A DNA stretch of 64,000 bases from Paraburkholderia sp. GTDB lineage: Bacteria > Pseudomonadota > Gammaproteobacteria > Burkholderiales > Burkholderiaceae. The stretch lies in assembly GCA_004322045.1 (NCBI GenBank), contig SCRN01000002.1:1-64000 (forward strand), given 5' to 3'. Shown here in pieces: positions 24,116 through 51,973 of this stretch. A program made the translations under genes and the position numbers. The notes below the pieces were generated by a model that searched no databases, had not been told where the DNA came from, and was given only the letters and a program-made list of their open reading frames with translations. Position 1 is the stretch's first letter; every line of letters starts with the position of its first letter.

Positions 24116-24880
24116 TCAAGCGCGGAAAGTCTTGGCGGTTTCTTCGGCGGCGTGCCGCAAATCCGGCTCGAAGGCTAGCAAGTCCTGTAACGTGAGCCGC
24201 CCGACCGGCGCCTGCACCGCAATGGCTGCGCAGGCGCGGTGACGGTCGAGCATGACAGGCACCGCGATGGCGATCAGCCCCTGAAGGTGCTCTTGGTCGT
24301 TGACCGCCAACCGGCGCCGGCGCGTCAACGCAAGCTCCTTGCGCAGCACTTCGCGGCTCGTGATCGTGCGCTCGGAATAGGGCCGCAGCGGGAGCGTGTC
24401 GATCACGCGTTCGCGCCGATCCTTCGGCAGAAAACTGATCAAGAGCTTGCCGCTAGCGGAACAATGCAGCGGCACGTGCGACCCCGGCTGCAAATGCATG
24501 CGCAACGGCCACTCCGTTTCCACTCGGTCGATATAGACGACGTCGTTGCCCGACAGCATCGTCAAGTTGCATGTCTCGCCGATCCTCGCCACGAGTTGCT
24601 CGAGCAATACATGGCGCGCGGCAGCCGGGCCGGCATGCATGAGCACGTTCACGGCGAGCATGCGTACTCGCGGCGAACATTCGTAGCGTTTGTCGCCCGC
24701 GCCGCGCGTGACGAGCCACGCATCGGTCAACTGCACGAGGATGCGGTGCATCGTCTGTTTCGGCAGGCCGAGCGTCGTCGCGAGATCCATCATCGATAAG
24801 GGGCGGCCTGCCGCCGCCAACGTTTCGAGCACACGGAACGCTCGCACCGCCGCCGCATTCGATTGATTCGATCCCGACAT
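24116..24880 (-). CDS. IclR family regulator (SauR-like position, divergent from sulfoacetaldehyde dehydrogenase)
   Basis: AFRVLETLAAAGRPLSMMDLATTLGLPKQTMHRIL; effector domain MQPGSHVPLHCSASGKLLISF. Confidence 0.9.
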   Translation of the reverse strand: MSGSNQSNAAAVRAFRVLETLAAAGRPLSMMDLATTLGLPKQTMHRILVQLTDAWLVTRGAGDKRYECSPRVRMLAVNVLMHAGPAAARHVLLEQLVARIGETCNLTMLSGNDVVYIDRVETEWPLRMHLQPGSHVPLHCSASGKLLISFLPKDRRERVIDTLPLRPYSERTITSREVLRKELALTRRRRLAVNDQEHLQGLIAIAVPVMLDRHRACAAIAVQAPVGRLTLQDLLAFEPDLRHAAEETAKTFRA

Positions 24881-29669: not shown

Positions 29670-31307
29670 TCACACGCCGGCGGCAGCCGGTTCGCCCTGC
29701 GAGAGCGCTTGCGTCGCGCGGTCTTCGAGGATCATCTCGGCTGCCTTCTCGGCGATCATGATGACCGGCGCGTTAGTGTTGCCCGACACGAGCTCCGGCA
29801 TGATCGACGCATCGACGACGCGCAAGCGGGCGACCCCGCGCACGCGCAGGCGCTCGTCCACGACGGCGAGCGCGTCGTTGCCCATCTTGCAGGTGCACGC
29901 GGGATGGTAGATGGACTGACTGAATTCTCGGGCGGCATCGAGCAATTCGGCATCGCTGCGGTAGTGCGCGCCCGGGGTGAATTCGGACACGATATGCGGC
30001 GCGAGCGATGGCGCGGCAGCGATGCGGCGCGCGACTTTGATCCCGTCGACGACGACCGGGTGATCGCGTTCGTCGGACAAATAGTTGGCGTGGATCAGCG
30101 GATAGCGCAGCGGATCGGGCGATACGATCTCGATATGGCCACGGCTGAAGGGCCGCAGTTGGCACACCGAAGCCGTAAAGGCGGAGAACCGATGCGCGCC
30201 CTGTCCGGGCTTATCCGCGCTGAGCGGCTGCATGTGAAATTGGATGTCGGGCCGATCGACGTCGGGGCGCGAGCGCGTGAAGATGGCGACCTGGCTCGCG
30301 GCAAGCGTCAGCGGGCCGGTGCGCCACAGCGCGTACTGCATGCCGATCCACGCTTTGCGCAGCGGGTGATTGACTTCGTCGTTGAGCGTGCGCTCGCGGG
30401 TGCGGTACACGAGCCGAACTTGCAGATGATCTTGCAGGTTCCGGCCAACCCCGGGCAGATCGAGCAGCACCGGCACGCCGGCGCGTTGCAGCACGCTTGC
30501 CGGGCCGATGCCCGAGTGCTGCAGAAGCTGCGGCGAGCCGATCGCGCCCGAGGCAATAATGACTTCGGCGCGGGCGCCCACGAACTTGCGTTCACCCCCT
30601 TGCAGGTATTCGACGCCGATCGCGCGCTTGCCCGCAAAGCGCACGCGGCAGGCCTGGGCACGCGTGAGCACGTGCAAGTTGCCGCGCCCGCGCGCCGGTT
30701 TCAAAAAGCCCTTAGCGGTGCTCCATCGAAAGCCTTTGTGGGCCGTCTGCTGGAAGTAGCCGACGCCTTCTTGCGTCGCACCGTTGTAGTCGGGATTGAG
30801 GGGAATGCCGATTTCCTGCGTGGCAGCGATGAAGTGATCGGCGATGGGCCGGCGCAATCGCAGATCGGACACTTTCAACGGTCCGCCCACGCCGTGATAG
30901 GTGTTCGCACCGCGTTCCTGATCTTCGGATTTCTTGAAGTAGGGCAGCACTTCGGCGTAGCTCCAGCCGCGGTTGCCCAGTGCAGCCCAGCGATCGTAGT
31001 CTTCGCGCTGTCCGCGCACATAGAGCAAGCCGTTGAGCGAGCTGGACCCGCCGAGCACTTTGCCGCGCGGCCAATCGATGCTGCGGCCGGCGAGATTGGC
31101 GTCGGGCTCGGTGCGATAGCACCAGTCGAGCTCGGGGTCGTGCATGGTCTTGAAATAGCCCACTGGCACGTGGATCCACGGATTGGTATCGGCGCCCCCG
31201 GCTTCGAGCAACAGGACGGTGTTGCGCGGATCGGCGCTCAGGCGATTGGCCAATACGCATCCCGCCGATCCCGCACCGACGATGACATAGTCGACTTCCG
31301 GTTCCAT
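29670..31307 (-). CDS. GMC (choline dehydrogenase-like) FAD oxidoreductase; IseJ-like isethionate dehydrogenase candidate
   Basis: DYVIVGAGSAGCVLANRLS, GGSSSLNGLLYVRGQREDYDRW, ACTCKMG; function inferred from island context. Confidence 0.8.
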   Translation of the reverse strand: MEPEVDYVIVGAGSAGCVLANRLSADPRNTVLLLEAGGADTNPWIHVPVGYFKTMHDPELDWCYRTEPDANLAGRSIDWPRGKVLGGSSSLNGLLYVRGQREDYDRWAALGNRGWSYAEVLPYFKKSEDQERGANTYHGVGGPLKVSDLRLRRPIADHFIAATQEIGIPLNPDYNGATQEGVGYFQQTAHKGFRWSTAKGFLKPARGRGNLHVLTRAQACRVRFAGKRAIGVEYLQGGERKFVGARAEVIIASGAIGSPQLLQHSGIGPASVLQRAGVPVLLDLPGVGRNLQDHLQVRLVYRTRERTLNDEVNHPLRKAWIGMQYALWRTGPLTLAASQVAIFTRSRPDVDRPDIQFHMQPLSADKPGQGAHRFSAFTASVCQLRPFSRGHIEIVSPDPLRYPLIHANYLSDERDHPVVVDGIKVARRIAAAPSLAPHIVSEFTPGAHYRSDAELLDAAREFSQSIYHPACTCKMGNDALAVVDERLRVRGVARLRVVDASIMPELVSGNTNAPVIMIAEKAAEMILEDRATQALSQGEPAAAGV

Positions 31308-31456
31308 GAAAGAGGTCTCCTGACAGCCCCCGCGAGGCGGCGCAAGTGCCTGCTGCGTAGGGGTCGCCTCACTGTCGCGGATGGCGAAAGACGGCGCAAG
31401 ACCCACCCGCATTGCGCGGACCAAACTGAAACGGAAAGTATCGATTCGGGATCAAA

Positions 31457-31486
31457 AGCGCCGTGCGCCGCGCGGCGCACGGCGCT
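31457..31486. repeat. Perfect 30-bp palindrome AGCGCCGTGCGCCGCGCGGCGCACGGCGCT
   Basis: Base-by-base checked symmetry in the divergent intergenic region between GMC oxidoreductase and CobS-like gene. Confidence 0.9.
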
Positions 31487-31524
31487 GTACCCACCGAAAC
31501 GGCGTCACTGGCGCTATGAGCGGC
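31485..31524 (+). promoter_or_regulatory. Candidate MocR/TauR direct-repeat site 3 (CTGTACCCACCG...CTGGCGCTA, 23-bp period)
   Basis: Half-sites at 31485 and 31508; similar to sites at 37972 and 41945. Confidence 0.5.
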
Positions 31525-31591: not shown

Positions 31592-32593
31592 GTGACGACG
31601 GATTTCATGCAGGACAGGCCCGATCGCATGGTATCGGTGCGCGAGTGCTTCGGCATCGACACGGGTTTGATGGCGCCCATGTTCGCCGAGCGCGACGATC
31701 ACGTGCCCGATATCGATCCGGCCTACCGGTTCAATCCGGACGTCACGCTTGCGATCCTTGCGGGCTTCATGCGCAATCGGCGCGTGATGGTGCAGGGTTT
31801 GCACGGCACCGGTAAATCGACGCACATCGAACAAGTGGCTGCGCGGCTGAACTGGCCGTGCGTGCGCGTGAACCTCGATGGCCATATCAGCCGGTTGGAT
31901 CTAGTCGGCAAGGACGCCATCGTCGTGCGCGAGGACCGGCAGATCACCGAGTTCCAAGAGGGAATCGTGCCGTGGGCGCTGCAGCGGCCCGTTGCGTTGA
32001 TCTTCGACGAATACGATGCCGGCCGGCCCGACGTCATGTTCGTGATTCAGCGCATCCTCGAGCGCGACGGCAGTTTCACGCTGCTCGATCAGAACCGCGT
32101 GATTCGCCCGCATCCGTACTTCCGGCTTTTCGCTACGTCCAATACCGTCGGCCTGGGCAACCTGAACGGGCTTTACCACGGCACGCAGATGCTCAACCAC
32201 GCGCAGATGGACCGCTGGAACGTCGTCGCGAAGCTGAGCTATCTGCCGCCCGAGCAGGAGGCCGGCATCGTGCTGGCTCGTGTGCCGGAGCTGGACGACT
32301 TCGCCGGTCGCGCGCGTGTCGAGCAGATGGTCGCGATGGCGGCGCTCACGCGCCGAGGTTTCGCCGCCGGCGATCTGTCGACGTTGATGTCGCCGCGCAC
32401 GGTGATCAACTGGGCGGAGAACTGCCAAATCTTCAACGACCCCGAACTCGCATTTCGCCTCACGTTCCTGAACAAATGCGACGAATCGGAACGTCCGATC
32501 GTCAGCGAGTACTATCAGCGCTGCTTCGGCGTCGAACTGGGCGAGCCAGGGCACGAAGCCGAAGCGGGCGGCGGCGCCTTGAAGCCGGCATGA
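31592..32593 (+). CDS. CobS-like AAA+ ATPase
   Basis: [28 protein letters not shown] Walker [23 protein letters not shown] Walker [15 protein letters not shown] start with AAAGGAG RBS. Confidence 0.85.
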
Positions 32594-34311
32594 TGACGGC
32601 CGCGCCTGACGCCGTGTGCGCCGCGGTGCGCCGCGAACGCTTGTGCGCGGCTGTGGCCCGCGCGCTGACGGGCGATGCCGCTTTGCATTATCGAAGCGGA
32701 CGGCTGTGCCGGCAGGTGCGACCGTTGCCGTTGCATGCGCCGCATCTGCGCAGCGACGCGACGCAGGACGATTTCGCTTTGCTGCGCGGCGCAGCCGATT
32801 GCGCGGCGATGCGGCTCGTGCATTCGGACGCGGCGTTGCATCGGTCCTTATCGCCGACGCCCTACATCGAGCGCTTGCTGTTCGAGATTTTCGAGCAGAT
32901 TCGCTGCGAGGCCCAGCCTGCGCCGGGCATGCACGGGCTTGCACGCAATTTGCGCGATCGCTTCGAGTCATGGTCGCGCGGCTATTTCAGGGCGGGGCTC
33001 GCCGACGATCACCTCGGCATCCTCGTCTATACGGTCGTGCAGATCGCATGGTCGCGCGTGACGGGTTGGCCCGTGCTCGACGAAACGGAGGGTCTCATCG
33101 AGGCCACGCGCGCCGGCATCGTCCCGCAGATCGGCTCGGACTTGGCGGGGCTGCGCCGGCATCGTTTCGATCAACGCGCCTATGCACGGCCTGCGCGCGA
33201 GTTGGCGCATCGGATCGCATCGATGCTCGCGCACGCGCGCGCCAGGTTCGGGGATAGCGGCGAGAACGAACGAAAACCCGATGATGCGTTGACCGCGTTC
33301 TCGCTATGGGTGGACTTCGACGAATCGCAGGAGGCCGGTGCTGAAAGCGCGGCGCCGGGCGCAAGTCGAAGCTTGGATCCGTCGACGCAGGGTTACCGCG
33401 CCTATACCACGCAGTTCGACCGCGAGGTGCGCGCAGCAGCGCTCGCCCGGCGGCCGCTGCTGCGCGACTACCGCGCGAAGCTGGATGAGCGCATTGCTGA
33501 AAGCGGCATCAACAGCGCACGCATTGCGCGCGAGTTGCAGTCAGCGCTTGCCGTCCCCCGCAGGGACGGCTGGTCGTTCGGCGAGGAAGACGGACGCATC
33601 GACGGACGTCGTTTGGCACAGGTCATCAGCTCGCCCGCCGAGCGGCGCGTGTTCATGCAGGAGCGGATGCGTCCGCACGGCGATTGTGCAATCGCTTTTC
33701 TGATCGACTGTTCGGCTTCGATGAAGGCGCAGATCGAAACCGTTGCGATGCTGGTCGATAGCCTCGCGCGCGCGAGCGAGCAAGCGGGGCTTGCGACCGA
33801 AGTGCTCGGTTTCACGACCGGCGCATGGAACGGCGGGCGCGCGCGGCTTCGGTGGCTCGCGTCTGCACGGCCGTCGCATCCGGGGCGCCTAAACGAGCTT
33901 TGCCATATGGTGTTCAAGACCGCGAACGATAGTTGGCGGCGTGCGCGCACCGACATCGCCGCGCTGTTCAAGGCCGATCTGTTTCGAGAGGGCGTGGACG
34001 GCGAGGCCGTCGAGTGGGCGTGCGCGCGGCTGGCCGCGCTGGCGGTCACGCGGCGCATCCTCGTCGTGATTTCGGATGGCAGTCCGATGGATGCGGCGAC
34101 CGCGCAGGCCAACCATGCGGCTTATCTCGATGCGCATCTAAAAGAGGTGCTTTTGCGCCACCAAACGCTGCGCGACGTGGATGTGGTGGGGCTGGGCATC
34201 GGGCGCGACTTGAGCGCTTACTACCGGCATTGCGCAACGTTGGACCCGGACGAGCCGCTCGATACGAAGCGGCTCGTCGGGGTGGCTCGGTGGATCGGAG
34301 CGAGGCGCTAG
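32590..34311 (+). CDS. CobT-like protein with C-terminal VWA domain
   Basis: [16 protein letters not shown] (DxSxS), [13 protein letters not shown]; start overlaps CobS-like stop. Confidence 0.85.
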
Positions 34312-37971: not shown

Positions 37972-38011
37972 CTGGACCCATCGGATCCCTTCGCCTGGCA
38001 CTACCGGCGCG
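37972..38011 (+). promoter_or_regulatory. Candidate MocR/TauR direct-repeat site 2
   Basis: CTGGACCCATCG (37972) and CTGGCACTACC (37995), 23 bp apart, between NTF2-xsc-pta and the ABC operon. Confidence 0.55.
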
Positions 38012-40935: not shown

Positions 40936-41748
40936 CTAAGCGCGGCTCGCATGCAGCAGCGGTGCGAGGCCGCTGGCGGCTTGCTTCATCTGCGGCACGG
41001 CTTTGAGCAGATCGTCGAGCGTTGCGCGCGCGGTCGGCGCATGAACGGCGAGCGATGCCAGCACATGGCCATCGTCCGCATCTCTCACGGGCACTGCGAC
41101 CGCCACCATGCCGCGCACGAACTCCTCGTTGTCGATGCCGACGCCGCGTGCGCCGAGGCGATCGAGTTCGGCGGCGAGCGTTTTCGGGTCGGTGAGCGTG
41201 CGGTGCGTCATCTTCTTGAGGGTCATGCGCGCGAGCATGGCATTGCGCTCGAGCAGCGTCATTTGCGAAAGAAACAGCTTGCCGCTCGCCGTGCAATGCA
41301 ACGGCACGCGCATGCCGGGGCGCATTTCGAGCCGTAGCGGTTCGGTGGTTTCGACGCGCTCGACGTACAGCACCGCGTCGTTATCGAGCGCGGTGAGATT
41401 GCAGGTTTCGCCGAGCACCTCGACGAGCGCGCGCAGCACTGCGCGGCAGCCACGGGTGAAGGTGTTGTTCGACAGCGTCGCCAACGCGAACTGCGCCGCG
41501 CGCGGACCGAGCGCGATCGCGCGATCGTGGCCGCGCGAATCGGGCATGTGCATGACGTAGCCGCGCGACTCCAAGGCTTCGATCATCCGCAACAACGTGG
41601 CCTTCGGGATGTGCAGGCGCGCGGACAGTTGCGACAGCGTATAGGGCTGTCCCGCGGCCGCCAGCGCTTCGAGCACGGCAAGCGCGCGCAGCACGCGCGC
41701 CTCGTCGGCGGGTGTGGCGTCGGATGATAGGGAGGCGATGTCGGACAT
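40936..41748 (-). CDS. IclR family transcriptional regulator
   Basis: VLRALAVLEALAAAGQPYTLSQLSARLHIPKATLLRMIEAL; GMRVPLHCTASGKLFLSQM. Confidence 0.9.
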   Translation of the reverse strand: MSDIASLSSDATPADEARVLRALAVLEALAAAGQPYTLSQLSARLHIPKATLLRMIEALESRGYVMHMPDSRGHDRAIALGPRAAQFALATLSNNTFTRGCRAVLRALVEVLGETCNLTALDNDAVLYVERVETTEPLRLEMRPGMRVPLHCTASGKLFLSQMTLLERNAMLARMTLKKMTHRTLTDPKTLAAELDRLGARGVGIDNEEFVRGMVAVAVPVRDADDGHVLASLAVHAPTARATLDDLLKAVPQMKQAASGLAPLLHASRA

Positions 41749-50137: not shown

Positions 50138-51670
50138 CTACACGCCGGGCCGCTGCGTGCGCACGCATTGCGCGAGCGCCCGTACGCCGGGCTCGATTCG
50201 ATCCAGCGCAATTGCCGAGAAGCCCATGCGGAAATAGCGCCGCGCGTCCTGATCGTCGTTCATGAAGAAGACGTTGCCCGGCTCGATCAGCACGCCGACG
50301 GCTTGCGCGTCGGCGGCCAGCCGTTCGGCATCGAGCCATTGCGGCCCTTCCACCCACGACGATGCGCCGCCCGTAATGGGCACGTAGCGCGCTTCCGGGA
50401 TATGCGCATCGAGCGCGGCCATCAGCGCTTGCGAGCGCTCCCGGTACGCATGCGCGAGCCGCCGCAGTAGCGCATCGTGATGGCCGAGGGCGAGAAACGT
50501 CGCGAACGCGCGTTGAACGTAGCCGACCGGATGCCGCACCATCAAACGCCGCAACGCACGAAACTCGCGAATCAGCTCGCGCGGGCCGACGATATAGCCC
50601 AAGCGCAAGCCTGGCGCGAAGGTCTTGGAAAGGCTGCCGACATAGATTACGCGATCGGCGGTATCGAGGCTCTTTAGTGCCGGGTGTGGCGTGCCCGAGA
50701 ACGTGTTCTCGCTCTCGTAGTCGTCTTCGACGATGACGAAGTCATGCTGCTGCGCCAACTCGAGCAGGGCGCGCCGCCGCTCGATCGGCATCGTTGCGGT
50801 CGTGGGGCATTGGTGGCTCGGCGTGACATAGACGTAGTCGCAGCGGGCGAGCGAGGCGGCGAGCGCATCGGGCGCAATGCCGTGACCGTCCACGCGCAGC
50901 GGCAAGAGCTGCGCGTTGCGGTTTTCGAAGATGTTGCGTGCATCGGGATAGCCCGGGTTCTCGAAACCGACGGTCGTCTCTTTGCCGCAGAGCAAATCGG
51001 CCACCAAGTACAAGGCCTGCTGGCAGCCGTTCGTGATGATGATTTCCTCGGGCGCCGCGAATACGCCGCGCCGCGGCAGCACGCGCGTGCGGATTTGCTG
51101 GATCAGCGATTCGTCGTCGCGCTCGATCAAATCGGGCGCCCAATTGCGGATCTCCATGATCGACAGCGCTTTCATGCAGCACTCGCGCCAATCGTTGGTC
51201 GGAAAAAGCGACTGGTCGAATTGTCCGTAGATGAACGGAAATTCGTAATGCTGCCAATTCGCCGGCTTGACGATATTGCGTTGCGCCGAAGGCGGATGCG
51301 CGATGCGTTGCCGCCAAACGGGACGGCCGGCCGCTTCGTCGTCGGCTCCATTCGATGCCGCAGGCGCTGCGGTATCGAAGCGTGGCAGGCTGCGCAGCAT
51401 CTCAGGATTGACGAAGTGTCCGCTGCGCTCGCGCGAGATCAAATAGCCTTCTTCGACGAGCATCTGGTATGCGAGCACGACGGTGTTGCGTGCGACGCCC
51501 AATTGATCGGCGAGCTCGCGGCTGGACGGCAGGGCGACCTTCGGCGCGAGTTGACCGTCGAGGATCGCGGCGACGAGCATTTGCCGGATTTGATCCTGCA
51601 AACTCTGCTTCGATCCCGACGAGCGCTGAAATTGCTGGGCCCATAACGCGGTCGGGGTGCGGCTCGGCAT
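50138..51670 (-). CDS. MocR/GntR-aminotransferase regulator, TauR-like
   Basis: ALPSSRELADQLGVARNTVVLAYQMLVEEGYLISRERSGHFV wHTH; NWQHYEFPFIYGQFDQSLFPTNDWREC; YVGSLSKTFAPGLRLGYIV PLP Lys. Confidence 0.8.
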   Translation of the reverse strand: MPSRTPTALWAQQFQRSSGSKQSLQDQIRQMLVAAILDGQLAPKVALPSSRELADQLGVARNTVVLAYQMLVEEGYLISRERSGHFVNPEMLRSLPRFDTAAPAASNGADDEAAGRPVWRQRIAHPPSAQRNIVKPANWQHYEFPFIYGQFDQSLFPTNDWRECCMKALSIMEIRNWAPDLIERDDESLIQQIRTRVLPRRGVFAAPEEIIITNGCQQALYLVADLLCGKETTVGFENPGYPDARNIFENRNAQLLPLRVDGHGIAPDALAASLARCDYVYVTPSHQCPTTATMPIERRRALLELAQQHDFVIVEDDYESENTFSGTPHPALKSLDTADRVIYVGSLSKTFAPGLRLGYIVGPRELIREFRALRRLMVRHPVGYVQRAFATFLALGHHDALLRRLAHAYRERSQALMAALDAHIPEARYVPITGGASSWVEGPQWLDAERLAADAQAVGVLIEPGNVFFMNDDQDARRYFRMGFSAIALDRIEPGVRALAQCVRTQRPGV

Positions 51671-51973
51671 GCTCTCTCCTAGGGGCGTTCCGGATAGCGA
51701 GCGGCGCGCGGCGTGCTCGGCGGCGCAGATTTCGCGGGACCATCCGAATTTGGCGGTGCGCGCATCGCGGTGATTGCTCGAATCATACTGAACTCGGGTG
51801 CGCGTCGGCGATCGGGAGAAACATCCCTGGCAAATGGCGCGCGCTTGAGGTTGCGCGCATTCGGCGCGGTGCGGGCGTGCCGATAAGCGCCGATCGAAGG
51901 CGCCGCGCAGGCTAGGCGTGCAGCGACGCAACGCATCGCGATGCAAATGTGTCGTGCGGTCTCCCGTTCAGCG

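Follow-up and report, generated by a model that had tools for sequence, protein, structure and literature searches.

A perfect palindrome in a variable Trinickia intergenic spacer, probably a product of quasipalindrome correction

The 64,000-nucleotide stretch of the genome of a Trinickia soil bacterium analysed here (the window) carries a perfect 30-bp palindrome, which probably (at odds of roughly seven in ten) arose recently and in this lineage alone by quasipalindrome correction, i.e., by template switching, within a spacer that is unconstrained and separates two conserved blocks. Judging from its non-conservation across the genus, the palindrome is most likely roughly neutral, and the functional element at the locus would be the adjacent MocR/TauR-type candidate operator, not the palindrome. 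The direction of the change, its origin in a single event and the absence of a selected function are all inferred. A perfect palindrome, however striking, can thus stem from a commonplace error of DNA copying and pass for an operator, and the decoy is here separated from the conserved candidate operator that adjoins it.

The palindrome and its rarity

The palindrome (AGCGCCGTGCGCCGCGCGGCGCACGGCGCT) sits between the divergent GMC and cobS-like genes (Table 1). All 30 positions are self-complementary with zero spacer, as had been claimed in the earlier note, and neither of the flanking bases lengthens the self-complementarity. It is the longest zero-spacer palindrome of the window (the runner-up has an arm of 9 bp, which is six shorter), and maximum arms in order-3 Markov copies of the window ranged from 8 to 11 bp (30 trials). 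In a census covering 1.22 Mb of the own genome (~20% of its length), zero-spacer palindromes fitted the order-4 Markov expectation up to arms of 12 bp, and the 15-bp arm was the only outlier. The number of 15-bp arms expected from base composition is about 2e-4 in 64 kb and 0.016 in 6 Mb. The palindrome is therefore unlikely to be a chance matching of independent bases, one such palindrome per genome being less impossible than one per window. The 71-nt segment containing it was predicted to fold at −39.9 kcal/mol (z −4.2); formation of a cruciform or hairpin is thermodynamically plausible, and was probably the cause of the mutation, not a function.

Table 1 Coordinates of the palindrome, the flanking blocks and the relevant genes in the window
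Feature	Positions	Strand	Description
GMC oxidoreductase gene	29670–31307	−	Choline-dehydrogenase-like; start codon ends at 31307
Block 1	31426–31456	none	CTGAAACGGAAAGTATCGATTCGGGATCAAA; 31 bp, conserved in nine Trinickia orthologues
Perfect palindrome	31457–31486	none	30 bp, arms of 15 bp
Left arm	31457–31471	none	5 of 15 positions differ from Y13; putative rewritten copy
Right arm	31472–31486	none	Identical in Y13, as is the following sequence; putative correction template
Block 2, candidate TauR/MocR operator	31485–31516	+	Direct half-sites CTGTACCCAC and CTGGCGCTA, starts 23 bp apart
CobS-like AAA ATPase gene	31592–32593	+	Downstream of block 2; CobT-like gene next
Second composite TauR/MocR-type site	37972–38003	+	CTGGACCCATC-N12-CTGGCACTA; upstream of TauC-like permease gene of taurine-type ABC transporter
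MocR-type regulator gene	50138–51946	−	GntR and aminotransferase-like domains; open-frame coordinates, start codon approximate

Other copies were searched for at up to three mismatches, and none were found in the 5,993,192-base Trinickia genome or in 149 further genomes from its family, ten congeners included; a half-arm search with arms 0–30 nt apart returned the window copy alone from the own genome. Counted genome-wide, as the earlier note had proposed, the sequence is hence unique and no scattered repeat. A terminator role, already doubted in that note, is unlikely, as the palindrome lacks a T-tract and genes diverge on either side of it, and scans of the palindrome region for intrinsic terminators and sigma-70 sites yielded no sites. 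Rfam matches in the gap were sub-threshold and were rejected as chance matches driven by self-complementarity. Elsewhere in the own genome (G000:C19), two long near-perfect hairpins near 324762–324791 and 366155–366185 share an outer stem (GACAAATGCC...GGCATTTGTC) and differ in their cores; they possibly represent a small repeat or terminator family.

Conserved flanks and the candidate operator

Alignment of the divergent gaps of nine Trinickia species revealed two conserved blocks, with the palindrome filling the space between them. Block 1 is possibly the promoter or operator of the GMC gene, and at the loci checked outside Trinickia the 500 bp ahead of cobS-like genes did not contain it. 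A proper block 2 was likewise absent from these stretches, where the three matches to a loose regular expression were unrelated.

The half-sites of block 2 are near-invariant across Trinickia, and a conserved TACRAT-like −10 candidate comes after them. The half-site CTGTACCNRYC is probably somewhat unlike the Rhodobacter box. MocR regulators such as TauR are reported to bind direct repeats spaced about two helical turns apart (PMC5320631), and block 2 shows this arrangement, i.e., CTGKACC and CTGGYNCTA about two helical turns apart at promoters of taurine-utilisation genes. The composite pattern CTGKACCYAYC-N12-CTGGYNCTA occurred at just two sites in the genome (31485 and 37972) at up to two mismatches, with the pattern having been derived from those same two sites. 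These sites probably form a small local TauR regulon that would include the cobS/cobT-like genes. The earlier note was right to report an overlap with a candidate TauR site, as the final CT of the palindrome (31485–31486) opens the CTGTACC half-site; the site itself is credible, and the palindrome covers no more of it than these two bases.

The surrounding cluster contains a taurine-type ABC transporter together with xsc and pta, and its MocR-type regulator (Table 1) is a natural TauR candidate. Two IclR-type regulators are encoded nearby (24116–24880 and 40936–41748). The CobS-like and CobT-like genes (31592–34311) lie in a sulfonate/GMC cluster and not in a cobalamin cluster; the CobS match scored 522 bits, which is below the NCBIfam equivalog cut-off of 558.55 and makes a cobaltochelatase function doubtful. 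The pair of candidate operator sites and block 1 are better leads than the palindrome.

Spacer variation and the origin of the palindrome

The spacer between block 1 and block 2 measured 28, 28, 8, 19, 61, 45, 16, 6, and 96 nt in the window, Trinickia sp. Y13 and the orthologous loci L004 to L010, respectively. The perfect palindrome is present in the window spacer alone; it is absent from all eight congeneric orthologues, seven of which are without any counterpart. Such variation between fixed flanks would not be expected of a functional operator or a structural element, and the absence from the orthologous loci of close relatives, a refuting result by the terms of the earlier note, speaks against an operator role or other conserved function of the palindrome. 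The folds of the other spacers were no better than those of shuffled sequences except in Y13 (P 0.04) and L008 (P 0.01), both values being uncorrected for nine spacers. In L008, the spacer AGGCCCCCACTCGGGG followed by CT forms a small hairpin.

Trinickia sp. Y13 (NZ_JAKWFK010000001.1) is the nearest relative, with an alignment identity to the window of ~92%, and the only one with a comparable spacer. Its spacer has exactly the same length as that of the window (28 nt), which indicates that sequence was rewritten in place and nothing was inserted. All differences within the palindrome fall on the left arm (AGAGACCGGCGCTGC in Y13 vs AGCGCCGTGCGCCGC in the window), and each of the five turns a Y13 mismatch into a window pair, such that the window left arm is the reverse complement of the Y13 right arm at 15 of 15 positions. 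An alternative alignment of the Y13 left arm needs two substitutions and two compensating indels, and still leaves a spacer of 28 nt. At the local divergence of 8%, at least five differences in 15 nt have a P of about 0.005, the placement of all five on one arm has a P of about 0.04, and five random substitutions would arrive at exactly the state of the window with a probability of about 1e-6. The changes are therefore clustered (5 of 15 vs a background of 8%), the putatively derived arm is an exact reverse complement, and the other arm is unchanged in the relative, as expected of a template switch. Across an 87-kb alignment of the window region and Y13, this was the sole cluster of at least four differences per 15 columns that was perfectly reverse-complementary to nearby sequence of the other genome; the scan depends partly on the palindrome itself and hence supports the template-switch reading without being independent proof. 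Perfect cases were found neither in reversed or complemented controls nor in the opposite direction of the same scan.

Quasipalindrome correction is established in E. coli (PMC7202029), and template switching has been inferred for the origin of hairpins and perfect stems in other lineages (PMC8794818). Under this mechanism, a Y13-like ancestor would have carried an imperfect inverted repeat at the spacer. During replication, the nascent strand would have folded back, copied the left arm from its own right arm and then gone back to the proper template, by which several mismatches would have been fixed at once with the spacer length unchanged. The arms of Y13 pair at 10 of 15 positions without gaps, for which the baseline odds, given the GC content, are about 0.06. 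The Y13 left arm also holds an 8-bp direct repeat of sequence on the right side (CGGCGCTG), which arose in 0.6% of simulations of random decay from a perfect arm (a post hoc test); the rarity of this repeat under decay favours the Y13-like state as the older one. Its ancestry is accordingly supported, not proven, by indirect tests on two genomes.

Competing explanations and known systems

The opposite polarity, in which a perfect palindrome arose once by foldback or inverted duplication before the window species and Y13 separated and its left arm then decayed in Y13, with no selected role in either, is unlikely and yet the best of the alternatives. Perfect palindromes mutate readily when long, both species have a 28-nt spacer with much the same composition that is missing from the other congeners, and polarity rests on two genomes without a third relative whose spacer can be aligned. 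Decay in Y13 would, however, have to be confined to one arm, to exceed the local divergence and to leave the direct repeat, each of which has the low probability given above.

It is improbable that this species has newly gained the palindrome as an operator through which a dimeric regulator controls the divergent promoters of GMC and cobS. The palindrome does precede both genes and adjoin the TauR-type half-site, with the IclR-type regulators near. A gapless GC-rich dyad of 30 bp is nevertheless longer than typical half-site pairs. Moreover, the palindrome is missing from all congeners though the flanking blocks are conserved, and with no second copy in the genome there is no regulon. MocR proteins, as noted above, typically bind direct repeats, and the conserved candidate operator at this locus is likewise a direct repeat.

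Even less can be expected of the idea that the spacer is a template-switch hotspot which repeatedly makes hairpins (in the window, weakly in Y13, and in L008) and in this way tunes the linkage between the GMC promoter and a TauR-activated cobS promoter; if true, it would be a case of fast-evolving DNA structures. A slimmer chance still attaches to a selected structure, either a cruciform or an RNA hairpin, by which the two divergent promoters would be insulated or the action of TauR modulated. The very stable fold of the 71-nt segment and the analogous small hairpin of L008 fit such a structure, the latter making selection for hairpins in the spacer faintly possible, but in six of the nine congeneric spacers the fold is no better than in shuffled sequences, two spacers are just 6–8 nt long, and the likely cobS promoter is downstream of the segment, which is thus probably not transcribed from it.

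A REP/BIME element, a MITE, another mobile-element remnant or an assembly artefact is very unlikely: the size of the palindrome is typical of REP elements and the draft assembly comprises 54 contigs, but the sequence is single-copy at up to three mismatches, the spacer length shared with Y13 argues against any insertion, and the site is well inside a 99-kb contig. The scar of a mobile element that had been suggested in the earlier note is disfavoured by the same absence of further copies and by the equal spacer of Y13.

Compared with known systems, the palindrome is like REP/BIME elements in being GC-rich and intergenic and differs from them in being single-copy and undispersed; REP/BIME elements require dispersed intergenic copies, and this class was therefore rejected. 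The likeness to TauR/MocR operators (PMC5320631) belongs to block 2, with its direct half-sites at a distance of about two helical turns and its position ahead of genes of a taurine/sulfonate cluster in which a MocR regulator is also encoded; the operator-like feature is thus the candidate site next to the palindrome and not the palindrome itself. Quasipalindrome mutation as described by the Ripley model for the lacZ and thyA hotspots of E. coli (PMC7202029) is the closest parallel. It differs in that the present case is read from a natural intergenic spacer of two species, with the event unobserved and its polarity unproven. The case would be a tidy natural instance of quasipalindrome correction in bacteria and no surprise, the mutational process being a known one. 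In common with the E. coli hotspots, an imperfect inverted repeat would have become perfect through changes that are clustered on one arm, are explained by copying of the other arm and keep the length of the sequence.
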